DNA of 20,163 bases from a virus, in the IMG/VR virus record IMGVR_UViG_3300021962_000836, positions 1-20,163 of that record; one strand, written 5' to 3'. This document shows positions 1,347 to 20,110 of this stretch, piece after piece (positions within the stretch are counted from its first letter, which is position 1; each line of letters starts with the position of its first letter). Below the pieces are notes generated by a model. That model did no database searches. It saw only the letters and a list, made by a program, of their open reading frames with translations, and had not been told where the DNA came from. The translations under genes and the position numbers were made by a program.

Positions 1347-1623
1347 AGACGAAGCGGAATATCTTAGACTGGCGACCATTAACCGCAGCTTTACGCACCG
1401 TAACCACGCCATCCGCTAGTAGTTGGTTCATACGGCGATTTAACGCACTCTCGCCTAGCTTTTGACCCTTACTAGCTAGTTGATCGCCTATCTGAGCCAA
1501 TGTAAATTCATCGGGCTGGATTGGTTGCGATGCGTTGAATTGCTCCTCGATTAGTCGATCTAATGCGCTTAGATGATTCCTTGTGGACTGATCCAAGTTT
1601 CCCCTTCTTTCGTTACGTGCCAT
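1345..1623 (-). CDS. Small winged-helix-like DNA-binding protein
   Basis: The 92-residue product has a C-terminal pattern typical of a winged helix: a helix around FTLAQIGDQLASKG, a recognition-type helix ALNRRMNQLLADG, then a strand-turn-strand VVTVRKAAVNGRQSKIFRFV. This suggests DNA binding, but the family is not identified. It begins at ATG 1623 with AGGAGA nine bases upstream, one of the better ribosome sites in the minus-strand block. Its first 55 bases overlap the metallophosphoesterase gene in another frame, so the two are probably coupled. As the last gene of the late block, it could act as a late regulator or a small accessory protein. Confidence 0.65.
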   Translation of the reverse strand: MARNERRGNLDQSTRNHLSALDRLIEEQFNASQPIQPDEFTLAQIGDQLASKGQKLGESALNRRMNQLLADGVVTVRKAAVNGRQSKIFRFV

Positions 1624-2300
1624 AGTTTTGTGTCTCCTGTTTTAGTGTTAATAATTCCGTATGCAAAACCTTGTCGCCAGCCTAGTTTAGCTGTATGTCT
1701 GTCGGCATATTCCATCTGGTTAATATCACCAATGCAGCCGATTGAATGAGCCTCGCCGCCTTCGATATGTCTAGCGGTATATTGGTTCGGAGCGTGGACG
1801 TGTCCGTGGACGCATTGCCCATACCGCTCAAAATGCATCTTAGCTGGATTAACCCCGCTGTGGAAGCCGTGGATTAGCTTAACCTTGCTATCTGGTAGAG
1901 TTAGATACGCTCCGACTCGGTAAGGAATCCAAGTGATTTTAAGCTGTTTAAACTTGCGTATAGATGAATCAACTAAACCTTGACAATGATCGCGCATAAC
2001 GCCATTGGACTTGCTACTAGCCCATTCCCAGATTCGTGCATCGTGGTTTCCTAAAGTAAGTAGGTTCGGGCGGTATGTCTCCAGGTATCTAATCCCAGCT
2101 TGGTAATCTTCTGATATGCTGCGAGTTTGATCGTTTAAACTTGCTCCTCCTCTAAGTGGTGCGAAATCCCATACGTCCCCTAAATCAACCCGAATATGTG
2201 GCTTCCATGTATCACAAAACCCCATCAATTTAGACAATGACTCTTTGTGAATAAGCTCGCCGTGACTATCTGCGGCTATGATAAATCTTTTAAAGCTCAT
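1569..2300 (-). CDS. Calcineurin-like metallophosphoesterase
   Basis: The 243-residue protein carries the full metallophosphoesterase signature: D-x-H (Asp11, His13), GD in DLGDVWDF (Asp42), GNHD (residues 84-87), an IHGFH histidine region (144-147) and GHVH (166-169). These residues bind two metal ions and hydrolyse phosphomono- or diesters. The substrate cannot be read from the sequence; phage members include nucleotide and DNA-end phosphatases and phosphodiesterases. It starts at ATG 2300, one base after the stop of the zincin-like gene, and overlaps the winged-helix-like gene at its 3' end. It lies just after the lysis cassette, an odd place for a nucleic-acid enzyme. Confidence 0.88.
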   Translation of the reverse strand: MSFKRFIIAADSHGELIHKESLSKLMGFCDTWKPHIRVDLGDVWDFAPLRGGASLNDQTRSISEDYQAGIRYLETYRPNLLTLGNHDARIWEWASSKSNGVMRDHCQGLVDSSIRKFKQLKITWIPYRVGAYLTLPDSKVKLIHGFHSGVNPAKMHFERYGQCVHGHVHAPNQYTARHIEGGEAHSIGCIGDINQMEYADRHTAKLGWRQGFAYGIINTKTGDTKLWHVTKEGETWISPQGII

Positions 2301-2301
2301 A

Positions 2302-2589
2302 TTATTTTAATTTTAATGATTCGTAAGCTGGCCAAAAGACCTCATCGACACATCGAACGATTGGTTCTTGATCGTATTTTTCGCCCCAACCCACTCCAGA
2401 TATGAGTAAAGAGGCTTCCAACATTTCATGCCGTAAAGTGATAAGGATTTCTCTGTCCTTCTTAATCGTATTTGAAATCCAGATAGTTCTGCTTTCATGT
2501 TCGTATTGCCCATATGCTTCTTCTAGCTTGCCAACTTTAATCTTAACACGTTGCCCCGCTATCTTGATGCTCGTAGGTAGTTTCATCAT
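2302..2589 (-). CDS. Zincin-like small protein with an HExxE motif
   Basis: This 95-residue protein has a LRHEMLEA helix (His54, Glu55, Glu58) followed by a C-terminal helix PIVRCVDEVF, the arrangement of small phage proteins related to ImmA/SprT-type zinc peptidases. Classical members have HExxH; here the second histidine position is Glu58, so metal binding may be altered or activity lost. I place the start at ATG 2589 (or the adjacent ATG 2586), directly after the amidase stop at 2591-2593. A longer frame to 2637 would overlap the amidase and starts with a low-complexity stretch. It lies between amidase and phosphoesterase in a coupled run. Peptidase activity is inference. Confidence 0.6.
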   Translation of the reverse strand: MMKLPTSIKIAGQRVKIKVGKLEEAYGQYEHESRTIWISNTIKKDREILITLRHEMLEASLLISGVGWGEKYDQEPIVRCVDEVFWPAYESLKLK

Positions 2590-2590
2590 A

Positions 2591-3151
2591 TTATACGTTG
2601 ATACATTGTTTGATTGCTTTTGCGTATGCTTCTGCAATTCCCTTTACGTTGATTCTGGAACAATCCAAAACCGATGACCCGAAGAATGGTTCAAGTATCA
2701 AAGCAGGGCAATGGGTAAGCTCCAGGAACTTGCCGCCACGATCCTTCTTGGTGATCGCCTTTACCCCACGCGATTTAATGGTTGGAAACTCCTTTGAGAA
2801 CTCCGAATCAAACTTCTTAGCAATCCTTCCACCAATCAAAGATGTATGCCAGTAAAGCCATTCATGCCCAGTAGCTTCTGGTGATGCCGAGTTGAAATGC
2901 AGCTCGATAGCTAGAGATGCCTTAGCTTCCTTTACCTGCCTAGCTATATCAGCCATCGCTGACCCGTAGCCATTGCCCTTATAATCATTTAGGATAACCG
3001 ATTTAATCCCATTTAAATCCAGCACATCCCGAAGTTCACTTGCGACCTTTAAATTAAAGTCGCGCTCATTGATCTTCAGCGTAGGACTATAAGCCCCGCC
3101 ATCATAACGCCCGTTGATCTTGCGGCTGTGTCCTATGCAGATTGCAATCAT
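2591..3151 (-). CDS. N-acetylmuramoyl-L-alanine amidase (endolysin)
   Basis: The 186-residue enzyme should cut the amide bond between N-acetylmuramic acid and L-alanine in peptidoglycan, giving host lysis. It follows the Amidase_3 pattern: CIGHSRK with zinc ligand His8, INER with zinc ligand Glu29, ELHFNSA with zinc ligand His85, and ILEPFFG with catalytic Glu154. There is no cell-wall binding domain or signal peptide, so it should need a holin to reach the wall. I chose ATG 3151 because GGAG lies just upstream and the ATG overlaps the stop of the 33-residue peptide as ATGA. A TTG three codons earlier is less likely. The length fits a single-domain endolysin. Confidence 0.88.
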   Translation of the reverse strand: MIAICIGHSRKINGRYDGGAYSPTLKINERDFNLKVASELRDVLDLNGIKSVILNDYKGNGYGSAMADIARQVKEAKASLAIELHFNSASPEATGHEWLYWHTSLIGGRIAKKFDSEFSKEFPTIKSRGVKAITKKDRGGKFLELTHCPALILEPFFGSSVLDCSRINVKGIAEAYAKAIKQCINV

Positions 3152-3249
3152 AATCTCCAATAAACGTAAGTTAATAGAGCTAATACCAACAAAGCTAGAA
3201 TTTCTGGCATCACGGTATCGGTTTCGTCATCGTTAGGTTCAAGGTTCAT
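3148..3249 (-). CDS. 33-residue single-pass membrane peptide in the lysis cassette
   Basis: This tiny gene encodes an acidic N-terminus (MNLEPNDDETDTV) followed by one hydrophobic segment (about residues 15-32, PEILALLVLALLTYVYWRL). The ATG at 3249 overlaps the stop of the lipoprotein gene as ATGA, and its stop overlaps the amidase ATG as ATGA, so it is stitched between them by translational coupling on both sides. That arrangement, more than the composition, argues it is real. By topology it could be an accessory holin, antiholin or pinholin-like peptide, but no family is recognised. Confidence 0.6.
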   Translation of the reverse strand: MNLEPNDDETDTVMPEILALLVLALLTYVYWRL

Positions 3250-3473
3250 TTCAGTATGGCTGCGTCTCGATACGATGCGTCTGAATGGAACTTTTGTCCA
3301 CGCCCTTCTAATTGCCCTTCCTCAAACTGGTATATCTGCCCCAGCTTCAGGTGGATTGTCGGGGGGTCGTAAAGCGATGACTGCGCGTAGCTTTCTTTGT
3401 CTCCTAGCCTCAAGACGCTTGACCCGCAGTTTGGCAGCAGGACTACCATCATCAATGCAATCGTATATTTCAT
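3246..3473 (-). CDS. Probable outer-membrane lipoprotein, o-spanin-like (Rz1 type)
   Basis: The 75-residue product starts MKYTIALMMVVLLPNC, a lysine then a hydrophobic stretch ending in a cysteine followed by Gly-Ser-Ser, as in a lipoprotein signal peptide, although Pro-Asn before the Cys is a poor lipobox. The mature part has DPPT and a C-terminal region around IYQFEEGQLEGRGQKFHSD that resembles a conserved but uncharacterised protein seen in phage lysis regions (recollection only). Its first 152 bases lie inside the preceding i-spanin-like gene in another frame, the hallmark of Rz/Rz1 pairs. The role, fusing inner and outer membranes at the end of lysis, is inferred and implies a Gram-negative host. 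Confidence 0.58.
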   Translation of the reverse strand: MKYTIALMMVVLLPNCGSSVLRLGDKESYAQSSLYDPPTIHLKLGQIYQFEEGQLEGRGQKFHSDASYRDAAILK

Positions 3474-3564
3474 CTTCTAATGTGTCTAGTTCTCGTTCCG
3501 CACCCGTCTGCACCCAGAGGATGTAGGCTTGTAATGCGAGGGTTATGGTTTGTATTAAGCTCAA
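3322..3564 (-). CDS. Probable i-spanin-like protein (Rz type)
   Basis: The 80-residue product has a hydrophobic N-terminus (LIQTITLALQAYILWVQ) followed by a highly charged region with coiled-coil-like spacing (ERELDTLEDEIYDCIDD, then KLRVKRLEARRQRKLRAVIA) and a proline-rich end. This is the layout of an inner-membrane spanin. The frame opens with TTG at 3564, which shares bases with the stop of the upstream holin gene (TTGA), so coupling is likely; no ATG is available upstream of the conserved part. Its 3' half overlaps the lipoprotein gene. Another reading is a small conserved phage protein of unknown function, so the spanin call rests on context and topology. Confidence 0.55.
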   Translation of the reverse strand: MSLIQTITLALQAYILWVQTGAERELDTLEDEIYDCIDDGSPAAKLRVKRLEARRQRKLRAVIALRPPDNPPEAGADIPV

Positions 3565-3722
3565 TCCTTTTTAAAGGTATTGATTAGCCCGATTGCAGCG
3601 AGTCCAGCAGCAATGATGGCACTAGATTGCTCTGGGCTAACTGTGATGCCAAAAGCTGTTGCGATAGCAATAAGACCACGCCAGGTGGATTCTTGTTTTA
3701 GATATTCAATGATGATTTTCAT
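3561..3722 (-). CDS. Holin-like protein, 53 residues
   Basis: The product begins MKIIIEYLKQESTWRG and has two short hydrophobic segments, LIAIATAFGITV (about 17-28) and AIIAAGLAAIGLINTF (about 35-50), with a lysine-rich tail. I recognise the QESTWRG plus hairpin layout from small phage holins; this is recall, not a search. Holins form the membrane lesions that let the endolysin reach the wall. The ATG at 3722 lacks an SD and follows an AT-rich leader; a sigma70-like promoter lies at 3759-3786. The stop TGA at 3561-3563 overlaps the TTG of the spanin-like gene. It opens the tightly packed lysis cassette. Confidence 0.72.
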   Translation of the reverse strand: MKIIIEYLKQESTWRGLIAIATAFGITVSPEQSSAIIAAGLAAIGLINTFKKD

Positions 3723-3758
3723 TTGATTATTTGATTATACGTTTAATAGGCAAAGGCG

Positions 3759-3786
3759 AATCTAACCTTTCCTAAAGGGTTGTCAA
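3759..3786 (-). promoter_or_regulatory. Candidate sigma70-type promoter for the lysis cassette
   Basis: On the minus strand TTGACA (plus-strand 3781-3786) is a perfect -35 element. It is followed after 16 bases by TAGATT (3759-3764), a four-of-six match to the -10 consensus. It lies in the 88-base gap between the two holin-like genes and would produce a transcript beginning some 30 bases before the 53-residue holin gene. A short imperfect hairpin (AACCTTT/AAAGGGTT, 3764-3782) lies within the spacer. The evidence is the sequence match and position only. Confidence 0.4.
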
Positions 3787-3810
3787 GACTATTCCCAAGG
3801 AAATAATTGT

Positions 3811-3993
3811 TTATCTTCTCTTTCTTGCAAAATTAAACAAGGTTATCAAGCCAACCAAGATACCAATTACCCCGCCAGTAATCCTAACCCCATACTCAAA
3901 CTGCTCCTGAAACGTGCTAATCACGCCTAATAATGACGCGACAGTTCCGATTGCCCCGTTGACCAGATTATACAGATGAGAATGTTCGTTCAT
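3811..3993 (-). CDS. Second small membrane protein, holin or antiholin candidate
   Basis: The 60-residue protein has a hydrophilic N-terminus MNEHSHLYNLV, a hydrophobic segment NGAIGTVASLLGVIST (about 12-27), a polar turn FQEQFEYGVR, a second hydrophobic segment ITGGVIGILVGLITLF (about 38-53), and a basic tail NFARKRR. Two membrane segments with a short loop and a basic C-terminus fit a class II holin. It lies just upstream of the other holin-like gene and the amidase, separated by a gap with its own candidate promoter. Two holin-like genes often mean a holin-antiholin pair, but which does what cannot be read here. No SD is visible before ATG 3993. Confidence 0.6.
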   Translation of the reverse strand: MNEHSHLYNLVNGAIGTVASLLGVISTFQEQFEYGVRITGGVIGILVGLITLFNFARKRR

Positions 3994-4016
3994 AACATTA
4001 AGGAATAAGATAAAAA

Positions 4017-4322
4017 TTAAAAGGTCGATGCGTTAGGGTTAATGATAGCTTGTGGGGCTAGGTCTATCCGTGCGTCCAATCCACCAAGTGATACTACAAG
4101 TTGCTCAAATTCTGGGAAGTCCACAGGTGTCAGTCCTTTTCGTAAGTTAGTTGCCATTATTTCATCATCGAAAGGAAGGAATACTTTGCCAGCGTGTGTT
4201 CCTGTGTAAATAGGATAACTCCCAGTAGTCCAGTAATAAGGCAATCCACGGGATTCTTGGGCGTTGCGGATTCCGTCAATGACTGCTTGGGCGGTTTGTA
4301 TGTCTGTAATAAATCCGATCAT
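4017..4322 (-). CDS. Hypothetical 101-residue protein downstream of the tail-associated gene
   Basis: This soluble-looking protein has an N-terminal segment MIGFITDIQTAQAVIDGI, an aromatic middle (LPYYWTTGSYPIYTG) and a LVVSLGGLDARIDL stretch near the end. I do not recognise a family. It starts at ATG 4322, one base after the stop of the 272-residue gene, so the two are very likely translated together, and a role with that protein (assembly helper, small structural protein) is the simplest guess. It has no signal peptide, membrane segment or cysteine. The next gene downstream starts the membrane and lysis group. Confidence 0.6.
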   Translation of the reverse strand: MIGFITDIQTAQAVIDGIRNAQESRGLPYYWTTGSYPIYTGTHAGKVFLPFDDEIMATNLRKGLTPVDFPEFEQLVVSLGGLDARIDLAPQAIINPNASTF

Positions 4323-4323
4323 A

Positions 4324-5142
4324 TTAAGGAAGAGTTAAACCCGTGCAACCTTCAAATAGGTTTTTGAGATTAAGTGAATATGTTTCGTTTTGAGCATCCG
4401 TTAAAGATGTTCCCCAACCGTAAAGGGTGAGCCGTGATGTTGATATAATAACGGGATTAAAAGTTGTTCCACTATCACCTGCTAAATTATATCCCATAGT
4501 AATAACTTCTCCTGTTGGGAATGTTCCAGCAGGGACTGCTACTGATTCTAAAGCTGTATATCCTGATGTGATTCGGCGTGATGTAAGCAACCTTGTTGCA
4601 TCAACACTTGTGCTGATAATACCTGTTGGAACTGCTGCTGGGGTAGTAGAGTTTGCACAATAACTTCTTTGTATTGATGTTGCTGAGTTTTTGCGGATTG
4701 CAGTAAATCTTGAGTTTCCTAATCCCCAATAAGCACCGCCATCAACCGATGCAATTTGAGAAATACCAATAACCGAACTAAAATTTGTTTTAGAGAGTCC
4801 AAGTGTTCCAAAATTACCTGCTCTAAAATAACCCGTAGAACCATTCCCTTGAACGTATCCAGTTCCGTGGGTAACCCCACCAACAAACGTGCCACTAATT
4901 AAGCTAATCATGTCGATAGCGTTGGCAGCAGCTACTCCCCAGATAGGGAAATAAAGGCGTTTTAGACTGGTGTAGTAACTACTTGTTTTTGCAGCTACAT
5001 AAAAATCATCAATCGCATTACGTTGTGTGCTTGTAACAGTTGCACCCGCTGCTTCTACTGCTGCAATATATGCGTTAGCATCAGCATCACCACGGGTTAC
5101 AACCATTGTTTTTCCAAGTGAATATGATAAAGAATAGTTCAT
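4324..5142 (-). CDS. Virion structural protein, candidate tail-associated or receptor-binding protein
   Basis: The 272-residue product has an alpha-helical start (DADANAYIAAVEAAGATVTS, about residues 18-37, then a helix with AIDDFYVAA) followed by a long Gly, Ser and Thr-rich beta-type region, with repeated small-residue turns such as GNGSTGYF, GAYWGLGNSRF and GYNLAGDSG. That layout matches phage structural proteins with a short helical head and a LamG-like or other beta-sandwich C-terminus; the assignment is by appearance only. ATG 5142 has GGAG six bases upstream and overlaps the upstream stop as TAATG. A TTG four codons earlier is also open but is inside the adaptor gene. It may contact the host surface. 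Confidence 0.58.
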   Translation of the reverse strand: MNYSLSYSLGKTMVVTRGDADANAYIAAVEAAGATVTSTQRNAIDDFYVAAKTSSYYTSLKRLYFPIWGVAAANAIDMISLISGTFVGGVTHGTGYVQGNGSTGYFRAGNFGTLGLSKTNFSSVIGISQIASVDGGAYWGLGNSRFTAIRKNSATSIQRSYCANSTTPAAVPTGIISTSVDATRLLTSRRITSGYTALESVAVPAGTFPTGEVITMGYNLAGDSGTTFNPVIISTSRLTLYGWGTSLTDAQNETYSLNLKNLFEGCTGLTLP

Positions 5143-5768
5143 TAGTAGCTCCAACGTGATTGCATATTTGCGTTTGTCTGAATACGGGTGGATACTAATG
5201 CACTAGAACGCATTTCGTCAATACGGATCAACTCATCTGTCAGCTTATCCATAGCCTCGGCATCAGCAATTTGTGATTTTTCCATCTGCCCCTCAGACCT
5301 AAGCCAATCAGAATATGTTCCGTGCGCCAGGTATTCAAACCACTCGTCAGGAATCGAAGAAGTTGTTCCACCTGTTCCGTCACCATAAACGGCGGTTGTT
5401 TGCTTCTTGTAAGTGGCATATGCCGAAGCACTATTCAAGTCACCATCAACAATCTTTGCCCCTGTGAAGTCAACGTAGAAATCAAAGTTCTGTGCGCTGT
5501 CAGCAATATATGGAGCAGACCTGTGGATAATAACAAACGTATCCACGGAATCAAGCCCAGCCTGCGTCCAAGGCACATAGCCATTAACCACATCTCTTTC
5601 CTCACCAACAACTAAGAATCTAGGCCAGAAGTTACTAGCACGGTAAGCTCTCTTAGCACGGCTATTTATCATTGCCTTAATCCTAGGAAGCTCAAGGTTT
5701 GCAAACTCAACTCCACAAAGTGATTTGATTAAAGGCAGAAGATCGGTTGTATAGTCCTTAGTTTGCAT
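5142..5768 (-). CDS. Probable head-tail adaptor (head completion) protein
   Basis: The 208-residue protein begins with a helical section (LLPLIKSLCGVEF, then INSRAKRAYRASNFWPRFL) and ends in a helix-rich region where EWFEYLAHGTYSDWLRSEGQ leads into acidic helices. The LAxGTYxDWLRxEGQ pattern is typical of podovirus and siphovirus adaptor proteins that sit below the portal, which is why I favour this role. No catalytic motif is present. It starts at ATG 5768 without an SD, 13 bases after the small gene upstream, and its stop overlaps the start of the 272-residue structural protein as TAATG. Alternatives are another connector or neck protein. Confidence 0.6.
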   Translation of the reverse strand: MQTKDYTTDLLPLIKSLCGVEFANLELPRIKAMINSRAKRAYRASNFWPRFLVVGEERDVVNGYVPWTQAGLDSVDTFVIIHRSAPYIADSAQNFDFYVDFTGAKIVDGDLNSASAYATYKKQTTAVYGDGTGGTTSSIPDEWFEYLAHGTYSDWLRSEGQMEKSQIADAEAMDKLTDELIRIDEMRSSALVSTRIQTNANMQSRWSY

Positions 5769-5781
5769 ATTGTGTTAATGG

Positions 5782-6096
5782 TTAAATCTCACGCATTGTG
5801 GAGATTTTGTTACTAGCCATAGTCGGCTCAAGTCTTTGGAAATCTTTAATAAAGCCTCTGTCATCCCAACATTCAACTCCATGTTTTTGTGCTATTTGAA
5901 GATACTCCCGTTGTGGAATCTCGGCTAGGTGGGTCATCTTAGCACCCTTACGCCTACCTCTATCACGGTAATCTTTGGCAATTCGTGCAGCTTCAATTTC
6001 ACGCTGCTTGGTGATGTCTTTCTTCAGTTGCTCACCCGTAATAATCTCACGGATAAGAGCGTGTGTCATTGCTTCTTCGCTAGGTTGAAGGATCAT
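5782..6096 (-). CDS. Hypothetical 104-residue charged protein
   Basis: The product is strongly charged, with helices around ITGEQLKKDITKQREIEAARIAKDYRDRGRRKG and a C-terminal HGVECWDDRGFIKDFQRLE. No family is recognised. I place the start at ATG 6096 (MILQPSEEAM). The same frame is open to a possible TTG-type start at 6174, but that extension reads through the hairpin at 6120-6142 and into the upstream gene. It lies between the decoration-like gene and the adaptor gene, so a small structural or assembly role is plausible. No SD is seen. Confidence 0.55.
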   Translation of the reverse strand: MILQPSEEAMTHALIREIITGEQLKKDITKQREIEAARIAKDYRDRGRRKGAKMTHLAEIPQREYLQIAQKHGVECWDDRGFIKDFQRLEPTMASNKISTMREI

Positions 6097-11864: not shown

Positions 11865-13865
11865 TTAATAGCCTCCCGATCCTTGGCGGGTAATCTGCAA
11901 TGCACTAGCCTCTACATGGTCAATATCATAGATTGCCGCATAACGCAAGCAATCCAATGGGTCTTTCCATGCTTCCTTCAAACCTTGCTCACCCGTGTAT
12001 TCTGATAATGCGCTAATGATGTTTCCACATTCCTCGCTCACGTAGAACTTAGGGCGGTTCAAGCTGTCCATCGGCTTGCTTGTATCCCAACTCATCTTGC
12101 TAATTAACGCTTGTAAGCCGTCCTCAATGTCCAAGCCAGGAGCAGGTATGCAAATAATGTCGTTCTCGGCTAAGTCCTCAATGATACTGCTGCTACCATC
12201 TTGTGCCTGATACTTTGCAGCTCCAAGTCGCGGGTCAATAATGCGGGTATAGATTTCTTCCTCATCCTCAAGGTCAGCAATTAGGTTCACGTAATCACGC
12301 ATCCCGTAGCCCATTCCCTTTGCTCCCTCTCCAGGCATCCACCTTCCGTTCTTCCATTCTGCCCAATCGCCAATGGTTGTGTCTGGCCATTCCCGATAAA
12401 CGTAATACGTTCCGCTGCCATCCACGGCAATCCACGCCATAAACCAGTTCTTGCTGCCTGCTGGGTCGATAATCTGATACCTCGTAATTCCCGTTTTGGG
12501 TATCATGTCTTGCGGTATGACGTTCACCTCTTTGTTGAACTTGGGGAACTTTGTCGCCTGAGACTTCACAGGAACACCGTATGCACGAATCAGTATCTTC
12601 TCGCGGCTTTCGTTTTTAAGGTCGCTGGCAAGGCGTTCGTAGCCTGAGAATGGGTTGTCCTTGGTATGGAAGTAATGGATCGAAGCGTTACGTTTATGAC
12701 TTATCTGGATGTGGGGCAGAATCTCCCCATTCAGTAACTCTGCTTCCTTGGTGGCTATGGTTTTTGCTTTGTCTAGGTAGTCCTTAATAACCTCCGTCCA
12801 GCCATCAATAGGCGTGAAGGTCACAAGCATCTTACTGTTTCGAGTAGCAAGCCTGAATCGCATCGTGTTAATCAGGTCATCTCCAAGCAGGTATTCGTCA
12901 AGCCACGCACCCACGTTGTGCCATTGTGCGCTCTTAGACCCAAGTTCAGCACCCTCGATAAAGGTAGGGTTGTTCTGATACTGAGAATAGGTTTTAAATA
13001 GAATCTGGCTTTTGTTCGGCAAGATCAAACTGTTGTCGGTAAAGCCGTTCTTCAGCGTATAACTAATGTAGGCGTTGCTACTGGTTTGTTTTACCCGATA
13101 CTCAGGTGGAAGCCAGTTATACACGGCACTTTGCTGCTGTCTGATGCTAACCTCGGCACTCTGAGCAAAGCACATGATGATACTGCCAGGATTTTCGATA
13201 GCAGCTTTTACCACGCTGTAAGAACCAAATGCAGTTTTGCCACTGTTGTGCGACAATACACCACCTATGAAATAACTATTGTAAATAGGAACATGAAAGT
13301 CCCATACCTCTTGTAACTCTTGTTCCCTTACATATTTAACAGTAATCAAAGAATCATCTGGTGAAGTTAAGCAAGCCCCTTCTATTGCGATTGTTCTAGC
13401 ATCAATCCAACCATGTGGTTTATTAAAGAACTTGTGATATTTTGTGCAGGTAATATAGCTATCATCAGAGAACCAAAATGACAACATCGGTTCTAAACCT
13501 TTTATAAAAGGCTTTTTAGCCAACGCTACAACTGGTTTTTGTGTGAAACTATCCCAAGCCCATACGTGGAAATCGCCCTGAATATCTTTTACTTTCCTAT
13601 GCTTACCTAAAAGCGGGTCAAATATCTCTTGGTGTCCAGCGAGACAGCGATTTCCACCAAGCACTAGAATTTCATTCACATTATCTAGCTGCTCCCACGC
13701 TTTAAACCAATGCTCTAGCTTAAAGCCGTATCTGAAAGGGTCTTTGTCAGCGTTACGTATAGCTTCCTCCCGTGCAGAGTAAAGCTCGACAAGCTCCTTT
13801 GCATCCATCTCGGCAATCTCGTCATCCGTAGGGATTCCAAGTATTTCGTGGGGTGTCCAGTTCAT
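11865..13865 (-). CDS. terL: Terminase large subunit precursor with an in-frame mini-intein
   Basis: The 666-residue precursor encodes the ATPase and nuclease that packages DNA into the prohead. The ATPase half has a split Walker A, GGNR (70-73) and SGKT (208-211), Walker B AWLDE (320-324) and a motif III-like VTFTP (348-352). The nuclease half has three acidic sites: IIDPAG (Asp467), RIIDPRLG (Asp544) and DPLDCLRY (Asp638). Residues 74-207 are a mini-intein; the spliced protein would have 532 residues, a normal terminase size. ATG 13865 is preceded by GAGG and overlaps the small terminase stop as ATGA. Without splicing the enzyme has no intact ATP-binding loop. Confidence 0.92.
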   Translation of the reverse strand: MNWTPHEILGIPTDDEIAEMDAKELVELYSAREEAIRNADKDPFRYGFKLEHWFKAWEQLDNVNEILVLGGNRCLAGHQEIFDPLLGKHRKVKDIQGDFHVWAWDSFTQKPVVALAKKPFIKGLEPMLSFWFSDDSYITCTKYHKFFNKPHGWIDARTIAIEGACLTSPDDSLITVKYVREQELQEVWDFHVPIYNSYFIGGVLSHNSGKTAFGSYSVVKAAIENPGSIIMCFAQSAEVSIRQQQSAVYNWLPPEYRVKQTSSNAYISYTLKNGFTDNSLILPNKSQILFKTYSQYQNNPTFIEGAELGSKSAQWHNVGAWLDEYLLGDDLINTMRFRLATRNSKMLVTFTPIDGWTEVIKDYLDKAKTIATKEAELLNGEILPHIQISHKRNASIHYFHTKDNPFSGYERLASDLKNESREKILIRAYGVPVKSQATKFPKFNKEVNVIPQDMIPKTGITRYQIIDPAGSKNWFMAWIAVDGSGTYYVYREWPDTTIGDWAEWKNGRWMPGEGAKGMGYGMRDYVNLIADLEDEEEIYTRIIDPRLGAAKYQAQDGSSSIIEDLAENDIICIPAPGLDIEDGLQALISKMSWDTSKPMDSLNRPKFYVSEECGNIISALSEYTGEQGLKEAWKDPLDCLRYAAIYDIDHVEASALQITRQGSGGY
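13245..13646 (-). other. Mini-intein inside the terminase Walker A loop
   Basis: These 134 codons read as an intein. The first residue is Cys74 in block A, CLAGHQEIFDP. A block B candidate is ITCTKYHKFF, with Thr141 and His144 spaced as TxxH. Block F is VWDFHVPIYNSYFIGG and block G is GGVLSHN, with penultimate His206, terminal Asn207 and +1 Ser208. There is no room for a homing endonuclease, as expected for a mini-intein. Removal joins GGNR to SGKT, restoring a standard Walker A. Base use is more AT-rich inside (64 GC of 180 in lines 13321-13500) than in the flanks (58 of 120 in lines 12841 and 13741), which fits later acquisition. Confidence 0.9.
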
Positions 13866-14410
13866 ACTACAACCTCAGCTTCGATAACCTTGTTAGCGCG
13901 TCTTTGCTTCGATGCCTCAATAAGAACCAAAGCATCCTCAATAGACAAGCCTTCTTTTTTGTTCGCCCCAGCATCTGATATTCCAGCAAGTGAGGATGAT
14001 TTATCCTGCATAATACCAATGGTCGTAGCCAGCTTCTCAGGGGAAACTAAGGCCAGTTGCTCAGGATCATCGTGTAATTGTTCAGCTTTCTTGAACAAAA
14101 GGTCAGTGTATTCCATAGCAGCCATCGCGTAACGGGTCGAGAACTGCTTGCGTTTCTGCTCTAGAGTGGAGTTATGATCCCACTCAAGCCGTCTGATTGT
14201 CTCGTTGGATAGGCTTGTAATACGGCGTATCTCGGTAATGTTCGCCCCTTGTGCCAGCAACCATAGGGCTTTAGCAGCTACATCTGGCTTTGTGTTCTCG
14301 GCACAATTCGCAGGCAAGTCTTTAGCTCGCTGCCTAATAGCGTCCATGAACTTAACCATTGAATCTTTGTTATCAATGGTAGAAAGGTCTGTGTCTTTTT
14401 CTTCTTCCAT
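13862..14410 (-). CDS. terS: Terminase small subunit
   Basis: The 182-residue protein would recognise the phage DNA packaging site and hand it to the large subunit. It contains a helix-turn-helix region (AAKALWLLAQGANITEIRRI, then SNETIRRLEWDHN) followed by long helices suited to ring formation (KRKQFSTRYAMAAMEYTDLLFKKAEQL) and a C-terminal region likely to contact the large subunit. It lies directly before the large terminase, whose ATG overlaps this stop. I chose ATG 14410. A TTG-initiated frame reaches 14446, 12 codons longer, but lacks any SD. Length and order fit phage small terminases. Confidence 0.8.
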   Translation of the reverse strand: MEEEKDTDLSTIDNKDSMVKFMDAIRQRAKDLPANCAENTKPDVAAKALWLLAQGANITEIRRITSLSNETIRRLEWDHNSTLEQKRKQFSTRYAMAAMEYTDLLFKKAEQLHDDPEQLALVSPEKLATTIGIMQDKSSSLAGISDAGANKKEGLSIEDALVLIEASKQRRANKVIEAEVVV

Positions 14411-14452
14411 AAAGCTGGAATGTATCGCTATTGCCGCACTTGGCAAGCTAAA

Positions 14453-19021: not shown

Positions 19022-20110
19022 TTATTTTACTTTCGTGTAATCAACAGCTTTGAACCCACCAAGTGTTTTTACGGCCGAAGGTGTTTTCTTTTCAACATCC
19101 TGAGCCATTACACCCATTTGGGTTGTATCATCACCTTTGTATTTGTAAGTATAAACAGGCAAGCCTTCATTTGTTTTGCCAACTTTTTTAATATCTGTTT
19201 TAAGGCGTTTGTCTGAAAACATAAGTGGAATAGCAGCAGCCGCAGCAGAACCAAACATTCCCATAAGTCCAGATGTCCTAGACGCACTAGCAGCAGCATT
19301 TGCTGCGGCGGCTTGTTGTTGCATAGCACGTTGTTGCATACCGATATTAACACCTACATCTGGGTTAATCATTTGTGGAACTGCACTACCAATAGCACCA
19401 AGACCTAATTGAAGTTGGTTCTGACCTGCTTGATAAGAAAGTGGTGCATTGCCAAGGGCTTGCAAACCAGGTGCTGTGTAAAAGCTCTGAGCCATATTAA
19501 ACGCCCCTGTGCGAGCTGCGTCTGCTTCAGCGCGTTTGCGAGCAAGAACATTTTCCCTTCCCATAACCTCTGATGCAAAAGCTGCATTACCACCAAGTCG
19601 CCCAGATGCCTGTGCTGCTTCACGAGCAGTTTGCTGATACATCCGTTGTTCTTGAGGAGTAACTCCTTGTGCTGATGCCCTAGCTCTTTCTGCTTCTATT
19701 TGTGCGGCCTCAACTTGGGCTTGTGCTTCTGGCGAAAGTGCTTGTGCAAACTGACGGAAAGCAGGGGCTTGACCTGTCATCGAAGCAAGCTCGGCTGCTC
19801 TAGCCTCTGCAAGCCCTGCACCAGCCTCTTGTTGTGCTGTTCTACCAAGTGCATACAATCCTTGTTGACCTTGCGAACCTTGTAAAAATCCTTGAACATC
19901 AGCCAAATTTCGTCCAAGAAACTCTGGGCGATATTGTGTTTCCAATGAAAGAACATTAGGTAATGCCTTTCCATAGCCAGAAACATATTTTTGAATATCT
20001 CCTGCAATATCCATTCCAGGTGCTTTTGCAGATTTAGCCCCTCCATCTAATAATTTACTGCCTACTATTCCTAGTGGTGCGTATTTCTTTATGCTATCAA
20101 ATAATCCCAT
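19022..20110 (-). CDS. Internal virion-type protein with C-terminal S74 chaperone-like domain
   Basis: The 362-residue protein starts MGLFDSIKKYAPLGIVGSKL, then has a Gln/Ala/Arg-rich helical region of repeated short helices (AGLAEARAAELASM, AQVEAAQIEAERARA), and an Ala-rich stretch (QQAAAANAAASAS, then GLMGMFGSAAAAAIPLMF) before a C-terminal domain from about residue 298: FSDKRLKTDIKKVG, then TYKYKG and MGVMAQDVEKKTPSAV. This is the peptidase S74 intramolecular chaperone pattern, with Ser299-Asp300 where self-cleavage occurs in tail-spike members. It is about 65 residues, shorter than typical. The upstream part resembles DNA ejection proteins rather than a fibre. ATG 20110 has an A-rich leader without an SD. 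Confidence 0.65.
   Translation of the reverse strand: MGLFDSIKKYAPLGIVGSKLLDGGAKSAKAPGMDIAGDIQKYVSGYGKALPNVLSLETQYRPEFLGRNLADVQGFLQGSQGQQGLYALGRTAQQEAGAGLAEARAAELASMTGQAPAFRQFAQALSPEAQAQVEAAQIEAERARASAQGVTPQEQRMYQQTAREAAQASGRLGGNAAFASEVMGRENVLARKRAEADAARTGAFNMAQSFYTAPGLQALGNAPLSYQAGQNQLQLGLGAIGSAVPQMINPDVGVNIGMQQRAMQQQAAAANAAASASRTSGLMGMFGSAAAAAIPLMFSDKRLKTDIKKVGKTNEGLPVYTYKYKGDDTTQMGVMAQDVEKKTPSAVKTLGGFKAVDYTKVK

Follow-up and report, generated by a model that had tools for sequence, protein, structure and literature searches.

A mini-intein in the Walker A loop of a phage terminase, and sister inteins with an antisense HNH gene

The large terminase (TerL) gene of the virus contig IMGVR_UViG_3300021962_000836 raises the question of why the ATP-binding loop of a packaging ATPase should be interrupted by an extra coding segment, and how such a segment persists and spreads. 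The stretch analysed, hereafter the window, comprises positions 1 to 20,163 of that record (20,163 bases). Its minus strand carries a late-gene block of a TerS-like protein (13862-14446), TerL, a portal-like protein of 686 amino acids, a scaffold-like protein and an SU10-type major capsid protein. The capsid protein at 6634-7620 matches PF17236 with an E-value of 1e-54, and a protein at 19022-20110 ends in a Peptidase_S74 chaperone domain (E 2.6e-11). The TerL open reading frame (ORF; 11865-13865, minus strand) has 666 codons, with residues 74-207 forming the insert. On one side lies an N-extein of residues 1-73 (13647-13865, minus strand) that ends in LGGNR and is 99-100% identical to the N-exteins of the empty and HNH-bearing alleles described below. 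On the other lies a C-extein of 459 residues (11868-13244, minus strand) that starts with SGKT, its Ser being the +1 residue, and appears to be a Terminase_6N-type ATPase plus nuclease; its Pfam match to PF03237 has an E-value of 1.5e-4 and 21.9 bits against a cut-off of 22. The insert parts the two halves of the Walker A motif, GGNR (13647-13658) and SGKT (13233-13244).

Judging from its sequence and a structural model, the element at 13245-13646 (minus strand) is almost certainly a class 1-type mini-intein, presumably cis-splicing, in the Walker A loop of TerL. Its 134 residues run from Cys1 to His133-Asn134 between the R and S of GGNR^SGKT, and Ser +1 completes the splice-junction residues. 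Block A (CLAGHQEIFDPLL, 13608-13646) includes C1, L2, A3, Q6, E7, I8, D10 and P11, all invariant among 13 mini-inteins, and block B (13434-13445) is TKYH, a TxxH pattern spanning T68-K-Y-H71 in which His71 is invariant. In block F (VWDFHVPIYNSYFIGG, 13260-13307), W115, D116, F117, V119 and P120 are invariant; the block, also delimited as VWDFHVPIYNSYF, contains VWDF with Asp116 present and has Asn at the usual His position, as do most siblings, while L037 has His. Block G (GGVLSHN, 13245-13265) closes the element with invariant S132, H133 and N134. Across the 13 mini-inteins no variation is seen in Cys1, the His of block B, the Asp of block F or the closing His-Asn pair, and Cys1 is also present in all aligned HNH-bearing forms. 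Comparison of the mini alignment with that of the HNH-bearing inteins places a short linker at about residues 92-102 (approximately 13341-13373, minus strand), the site of the antisense HNH in sister inteins; in the window it holds no insert. A sequence-only reading of this DNA had placed a mini-intein with these ends and blocks A, B, F and G at residues 74-207, and its coordinates proved correct to the base, with the Asn of block F as the one departure from the usual pattern. Its statement that removal restores GGNRSGKT also stands, since the shortened protein has 532 residues and an intact GxxxxGKT motif, and the same sequence runs uninterrupted in empty alleles.

The HINT fold anticipated by that reading was recovered in an AlphaFold model of moderate confidence (mean pLDDT 68, with the last 17 residues below 50). 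When this model was compared with the PDB by Foldseek, the 30 best matches were inteins or intein-like domains, led by the Ssp DnaB mini-intein (6frh, E 1.6e-4). A search against intein families was divided in its outcome: the window copy scored 17.8 bits for Pfam Intein_splicing, below the gathering score of 35.8, a threshold that marks a detection limit and not a biological requirement, and its sibling L005, about 61% identical to it, cleared the threshold at 42.0 bits. The window copy is 100% identical to the intein of an independent 48-kb contig (L002) and only 43-64% identical to every other mini type. Since empty GGNR|SGKT alleles exist and the identical insert recurs in the L002 contig, chance resemblance can be discounted. 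Among cultured phages, the relatives of the mini-intein were weak, partial matches to ribonucleotide reductase inteins of Caulobacter phages. No endonuclease domain was found within the 134 residues, and an in-frame LAGLIDADG or HNH segment between blocks B and F is absent.

The state of the same site in related terminases was established from IMG/VR, where a scan with the C-extein retained 80 of 281 relatives and a scan with the intein yielded 18 loci. Alleles were typed by the sequence excised between GGNR and the +1 residue at each locus. The site was empty in 51 cases and held a mini-intein of 134-136 amino acids in 21, an intein of 295 amino acids in 14, and single inserts of 311 and 211 amino acids, with some contigs counted twice; the empty state accounts for 51 of the 74 placed TerL loci. 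Two of the empty alleles, L023 and L025, have uninterrupted GGNR|SGKT codons and 99% C-extein identity to the window, which provides the vacant site that the sequence-only reading had sought in related terminases. The intein is also AT-rich, with a GC content of 37.8% compared with 45.3-50.7% across all 402-nt segments of the C-extein, and together with the empty alleles this bears out the proposal that it arrived after the host gene. Alleles of different state may sit on the same terminase. The empty L023 and L024, which holds a 295-residue intein, have identical extein proteins and C-extein DNA that is 99.9% identical, and an identical mature TerL is predicted from L006 (mini), L074 (295 residues) and L075 (empty). 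Between the window and L022, another carrier of the 295-residue form, the C-extein protein is 99.3% identical. A single metagenome, 3300020044, holds all three states (L006/L016, L029/L081 and L115/L132).

Some of these loci show features of their own. The empty allele L081 has a 3-base deletion exactly at the site (about 3990-4015), giving GGN-SGKT for GGNRSGKT, which is possibly a repair scar after cleavage or else an assembly error. In some empty alleles among L044-L050 and L057, SSKT or ASKT replaces SGKT in the P-loop; inteins too are found beside SSKT (L016, L037). In L048 the empty terL is closely followed downstream by a free-standing HNH-type ORF (5335-6084) that belongs to a different kind, and L044/L045 have a sigma-70 region 4-like ORF between the small and large terminase genes (3280-3783).

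The larger inteins differ from the minis in their middle. The extra 160 residues of the 295-residue form are rich in Ser, Cys, Arg and Leu, a composition atypical of a protein domain. Reading the 295- and 311-residue inteins in six frames reveals an antisense ORF of 174-182 codons containing EVVHHKNGVKDDNRIENLEL. In four diverse copies it matches Pfam HNH_3 at an E-value of about 1e-11, its matches to PHROG HNH families have E-values as low as 4.6e-30, and in some copies an HTH-like region precedes the HNH. The HNH motif is conserved among antisense ORFs that are 52-95% identical. No in-frame endonuclease was detected in the four sister inteins scanned, the sense frame matching intein families only. 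In the AlphaFold model of the 295-residue sense product, the splicing parts (residues 1-90 and about 261-288) have a pLDDT mostly of 71-86 while the middle (92-258) is mostly under 50, and Foldseek matches this form to inteins. L017 and L019 follow the same plan with inteins of 303 amino acids, in exteins without a match to those of the window. Very likely, therefore, these sister inteins are autonomous two-strand elements, with the splicing domain encoded by the sense strand and an HNH homing endonuclease by the antisense strand; because the sense frame stays open through the HNH, the precursor can still be read and spliced. One locus, L031 (3368-4000, on the same contig as L143), holds the 211-residue insert, in which most of the N-terminal splicing half is deleted and block B is missing. 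Its antisense HNH ORF is still open; the allele may be dead, may be a parasite reduced to the HNH, or may result from chimeric assembly.

The antisense HNH is a gene under purifying selection. Over 446 pairs of 295-residue inteins, its dN/dS is 0.16, whereas the value is 1.9 when that DNA is read in sense and 0.12 for the splicing parts, which range over 0.05-0.12 among the length classes. Two other length classes gave values of 0.18 and 0.20 for the antisense HNH against 1.5 in sense. The open sense frame is itself under selection. Synonymous recoding of the HNH predicts 5-11 sense-frame stops on average, and none was observed in 21 of 21 representatives, which, like those counted for the promoter below, share ancestry and are not independent events, so that their significance is overstated to some extent. 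In the same phase, homologues of the HNH on genome contigs, most of them free-standing, show 4.2 stops per 100 codons as opposed to none in 38 of 38 intein copies, and the other phases show no such difference. The antisense phase is constant in all copies and is not the easiest one to keep open, which argues for a single origin of the two-strand plan.

A promoter is enriched ahead of the antisense gene. TTGACA occurs in the 75 nt before its ATG in 14 of these related 21 representatives, compared with 0.71 expected when the intein is recoded synonymously, and the -35/-10 scores sum to 192, the expectation being 159.3 +/- 3.1. The promoter is not evident in L017, L149 and L150. In several copies the -10 element ends 6-10 nt upstream of the antisense ATG, a distance so short that leaderless or nearly leaderless messages would result. 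In Pseudoalteromonas phage PHS3 the HNH promoter reads TTGACA-N17-GATAAT, and an AAGGGG motif lies upstream of the ATG. An autorepression operator like that of I-TevI was sought in the family and set aside, as the best match to the element's own target was mostly like recoded controls in 17 representatives; five of the 17 came out low in this coarse test, a weak lead. On the antisense strand of L022, about 90-122 nt from the 3' end of the intein, the HNH promoter spacer is CTTGGTGGTAATAG, which reads LGGNR and resembles the terL target CTTGGTGGGAATCG at 12 of 15 positions. This may be an autorepression operator in that copy; it is not family-wide.

The two-strand plan extends well beyond the relatives of the window. 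A scan of IMG/VR with the HNH as query gave 199 relatives, and 523 HNH relatives were reported for the full set, of which 80 were retained per scan. Both intein ends could be placed for 77 of the 80 best, all of them antisense in TerL inteins with the insertion pattern GGN[RQ]^C...HN^S-x-K-S/T; the other three were partly located. A second, broader HNH scan added 35 of 35 that are likewise antisense in TerL inteins. The viral contigs that follow the plan number more than 110, and it also occurs in two cultured phages. On bacterial and archaeal genome contigs, the HNH family is free-standing in 58 of 68 cases, and one Phycisphaeraceae contig (L182) carries the intein form. An actinomycete metagenome-assembled genome (L203, 2236-3891, minus strand) has an antisense HNH ORF in an intein-like insert of a non-terminase protein, which implies that the plan may not be confined to TerL. 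Of the cultured phages, Pectobacterium phage Ymer (L179) has its intein-containing terminase at 2050-4362 (minus strand), a 771-residue ORF annotated as hypothetical, and its antisense HNH at 3390-4115 (plus strand) is absent from the annotation. In PHS3 (L181), the TerL ORF lies at 1544-3667 (minus strand) and the HNH at 2800-3516 (plus strand), of 239 codons, is annotated. Here the annotated terminase start is misplaced behind the antisense HNH, the true ORF, intein included, beginning about 950 bases earlier.

Where the mini-inteins stand in relation to these elements bears on the earlier statement that the window copy has lost any endonuclease. The copy indeed has none, but its sister inteins carry one in antisense, and the placing of the root decides between loss of the HNH by the minis and its absence from the start. 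In a tree of the splicing parts, 15 distinct minis form one group (support 100/99) apart from 27 HNH-bearing inteins, with a midpoint root only and with long branches meeting where the minis adjoin L017/L019. Under such a root the minis may derive from loss of the HNH or may have lacked it originally. No remnant of TTGACA was found at the corresponding place in the minis examined, apart from TTGAC in L035.

The HNH-free mini clade, including the allele of the window, still moves between phages. On the extein tree the three site states require 23 changes, compared with 22.6 when labels are shuffled, and the minis alone require at least nine; this scatter indicates movement without an endonuclease of their own. 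Between L003 and L004 the proportion of synonymous differences (pS) is 0.15 in the intein, 0.75 in the C-extein and 0.82 in the N-extein, and for L005/L006, L007/L014 and L010/L014 the synonymous divergence of the intein is likewise far below that of the flanking exteins. Synonymous differences between L003 and L004 are already found in the codons touching the insertion site, so that no shared co-conversion tract is visible. Ordinary phage recombination may be a sufficient cause of mini transfer. On balance, mobilisation in trans by the HNH of co-infecting phages seems the likelier course. Supply of the HNH from the same genome was also considered and rejected, since neither the rest of the 20-kb window nor the 48-kb sister contig yielded a relative of the sister-intein HNH family.

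Several other explanations of the locus can be set against this evidence. That the insert is no intein at all and stays in the mature protein is scarcely credible, even though the window copy falls under the Pfam Intein_splicing cut-off: the splicing residues, apart from the block F His, are present and conserved among 13 minis, the top fold matches are all inteins, and an essential ATPase would not be expected to package DNA with 134 extra residues kept in its P-loop. The model for such a retained insertion would be the ShiLan domain of a phage methylase, where an HNH lies "hidden" out of frame (Arsenault et al. 2025, PMC11855218). It is nearly as improbable that the antisense HNH ORF is not a gene and arose only incidentally from an in-frame linker or degenerate endonuclease. 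Chance can produce long antisense ORFs where genes are GC-rich, and the ORF of phage Ymer is unannotated; however, the HNH_3 matches in four divergent copies, the conserved motif, the contrast in dN/dS between strands and the promoter enrichment all speak for a gene, and the annotators of PHS3 called the ORF independently.

The remaining alternatives concern what keeps the mini-intein in place. An immobile relic, whose endonuclease has decayed and which is inherited only vertically until it is lost, would fit the lack of an endonuclease in the insert and the 48-kb sister contig as well as the distance of the window copy from other mini types. The repeated changes of mini state on the extein tree, and the four pairs in which inteins are much closer than their exteins, make this reading unlikely. 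Less likely still is the proposal of the sequence-only reading that the element is a timing switch, retained so that splicing sets the moment of DNA packaging. A precursor with the insert still in its ATP-binding loop should be inactive, and inteins in ATPases have been proposed to splice conditionally (PMC5050341). Yet alleles with an identical TerL protein lack the intein altogether (L075) or hold a mini (L006) or an HNH intein (L074), most placed loci are empty, and presence is as scattered as shuffled labels. This is the distribution of a mobile element and not of a retained regulator, and the switch is therefore unsupported.

The preferred explanation is thus a mobile mini-intein with two-strand autonomous sisters, in which the window allele is the non-autonomous form, and as a whole it is held with reasonably good confidence. 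At the DNA level, the mini-intein is inserted between the R and S codons of Walker A. After translation, as its anatomy and fold suggest, self-excision would join GGNR to SGKT and release the 532-residue packaging ATPase, and very likely packaging needs this splicing. In the autonomous members, the sense strand encodes a single uninterrupted precursor, with the splicing domain made up of its N- and C-terminal portions, and the antisense strand of the middle encodes the HNH homing endonuclease behind a sigma70-like promoter inside the C-terminal coding region of the intein. The HNH presumably cuts empty terL in co-infected cells, followed by repair from the intein-bearing genome, and a promoter of this type would allow HNH activity ahead of late terminase synthesis. 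The window allele was probably moved by an HNH in trans or by ordinary recombination. A broader proposition, namely a widespread two-strand intein class with a sigma70-like and sometimes leaderless antisense promoter that arose once, spread through very different terminases and gave rise to or accompanied the trans-mobilised minis, is somewhat favoured.

The closest parallels are the TerL inteins of mycobacteriophages. TerL1-a and TerL1-b lie in the P-loop, and two TerL inteins put to the test were able both to splice and to cut empty alleles (Kelley et al. 2016, PMC5050341). They share with the present family the Walker A loop of a phage TerL, sporadic occurrence and mobility. However, the tested mycobacteriophage inteins have an in-frame LAGLIDADG endonuclease and TerL1-a sits between Lys and Thr (PMC5050341), whereas the present insertion point is R^S within the GGNRSGKT of a Terminase_6N-type TerL, and the endonuclease is missing (window) or an antisense HNH (sisters). 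The Ssp DnaB, Npu DnaB and gp41-1 mini-inteins, the closest PDB folds, share the HINT fold, Cys1, TxxH and HN^S, but occupy other host proteins and sites at about 20% identity. As with the ShiLan domain, an HNH gene is overprinted on an open host-gene frame with suspected homing, and a leaderless start has been proposed for ShiLan also. ShiLan lies on the same strand as its host, a non-essential gene, has no splicing domain and is thought to be retained in the protein (PMC11855218). In the sister inteins, by contrast, the HNH is antisense, within an intein and in an essential packaging ATPase, and the window copy is without it.

I-TevI of T4 and other intron-encoded homing endonucleases have promoters of their own (reviewed in PMC2988022), and they share with the two-strand inteins an endonuclease that is nested in a splicing element and transcribed independently of the host gene. 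I-TevI belongs to a group I intron and is expressed from late or middle phage promoters within the host-gene transcription unit (PMC2988022), in contrast to an intein with a sigma70-like promoter on the opposite strand. Collaborative homing, in which an intron and a separate homing endonuclease gene are adjacent in the same genome (discussed in PMC10448857), likewise involves a splicing element mobilised by an endonuclease encoded elsewhere; here, the endonuclease would come from a co-infecting phage. A full-text literature search, with partial coverage of subscription papers, turned up no account of an intein with an endonuclease encoded on its antisense strand. From the sequences, the window copy alone would be another Walker A TerL intein, and the novelty appears to lie in the antisense-HNH family, unmatched in the literature searched.

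One practical consequence is that annotation pipelines miss one of the two genes, as with the truncated terminase of PHS3 and the missing HNH of Ymer. About 170 codons are doubly constrained, as they must encode a working HNH on one strand without closing the reading frame of the opposite strand. With empty, mini and HNH alleles found on identical terminases in a single sampled community, both the homing cycle and trans-mobilisation become directly testable in a cultured phage. Inteins in the textbook form owe their mobility to an endonuclease fused in frame, which as a result is made only together with the host protein. Placing the endonuclease on the antisense strand under its own promoter would uncouple the time of DNA cutting from the late synthesis of the packaging motor.
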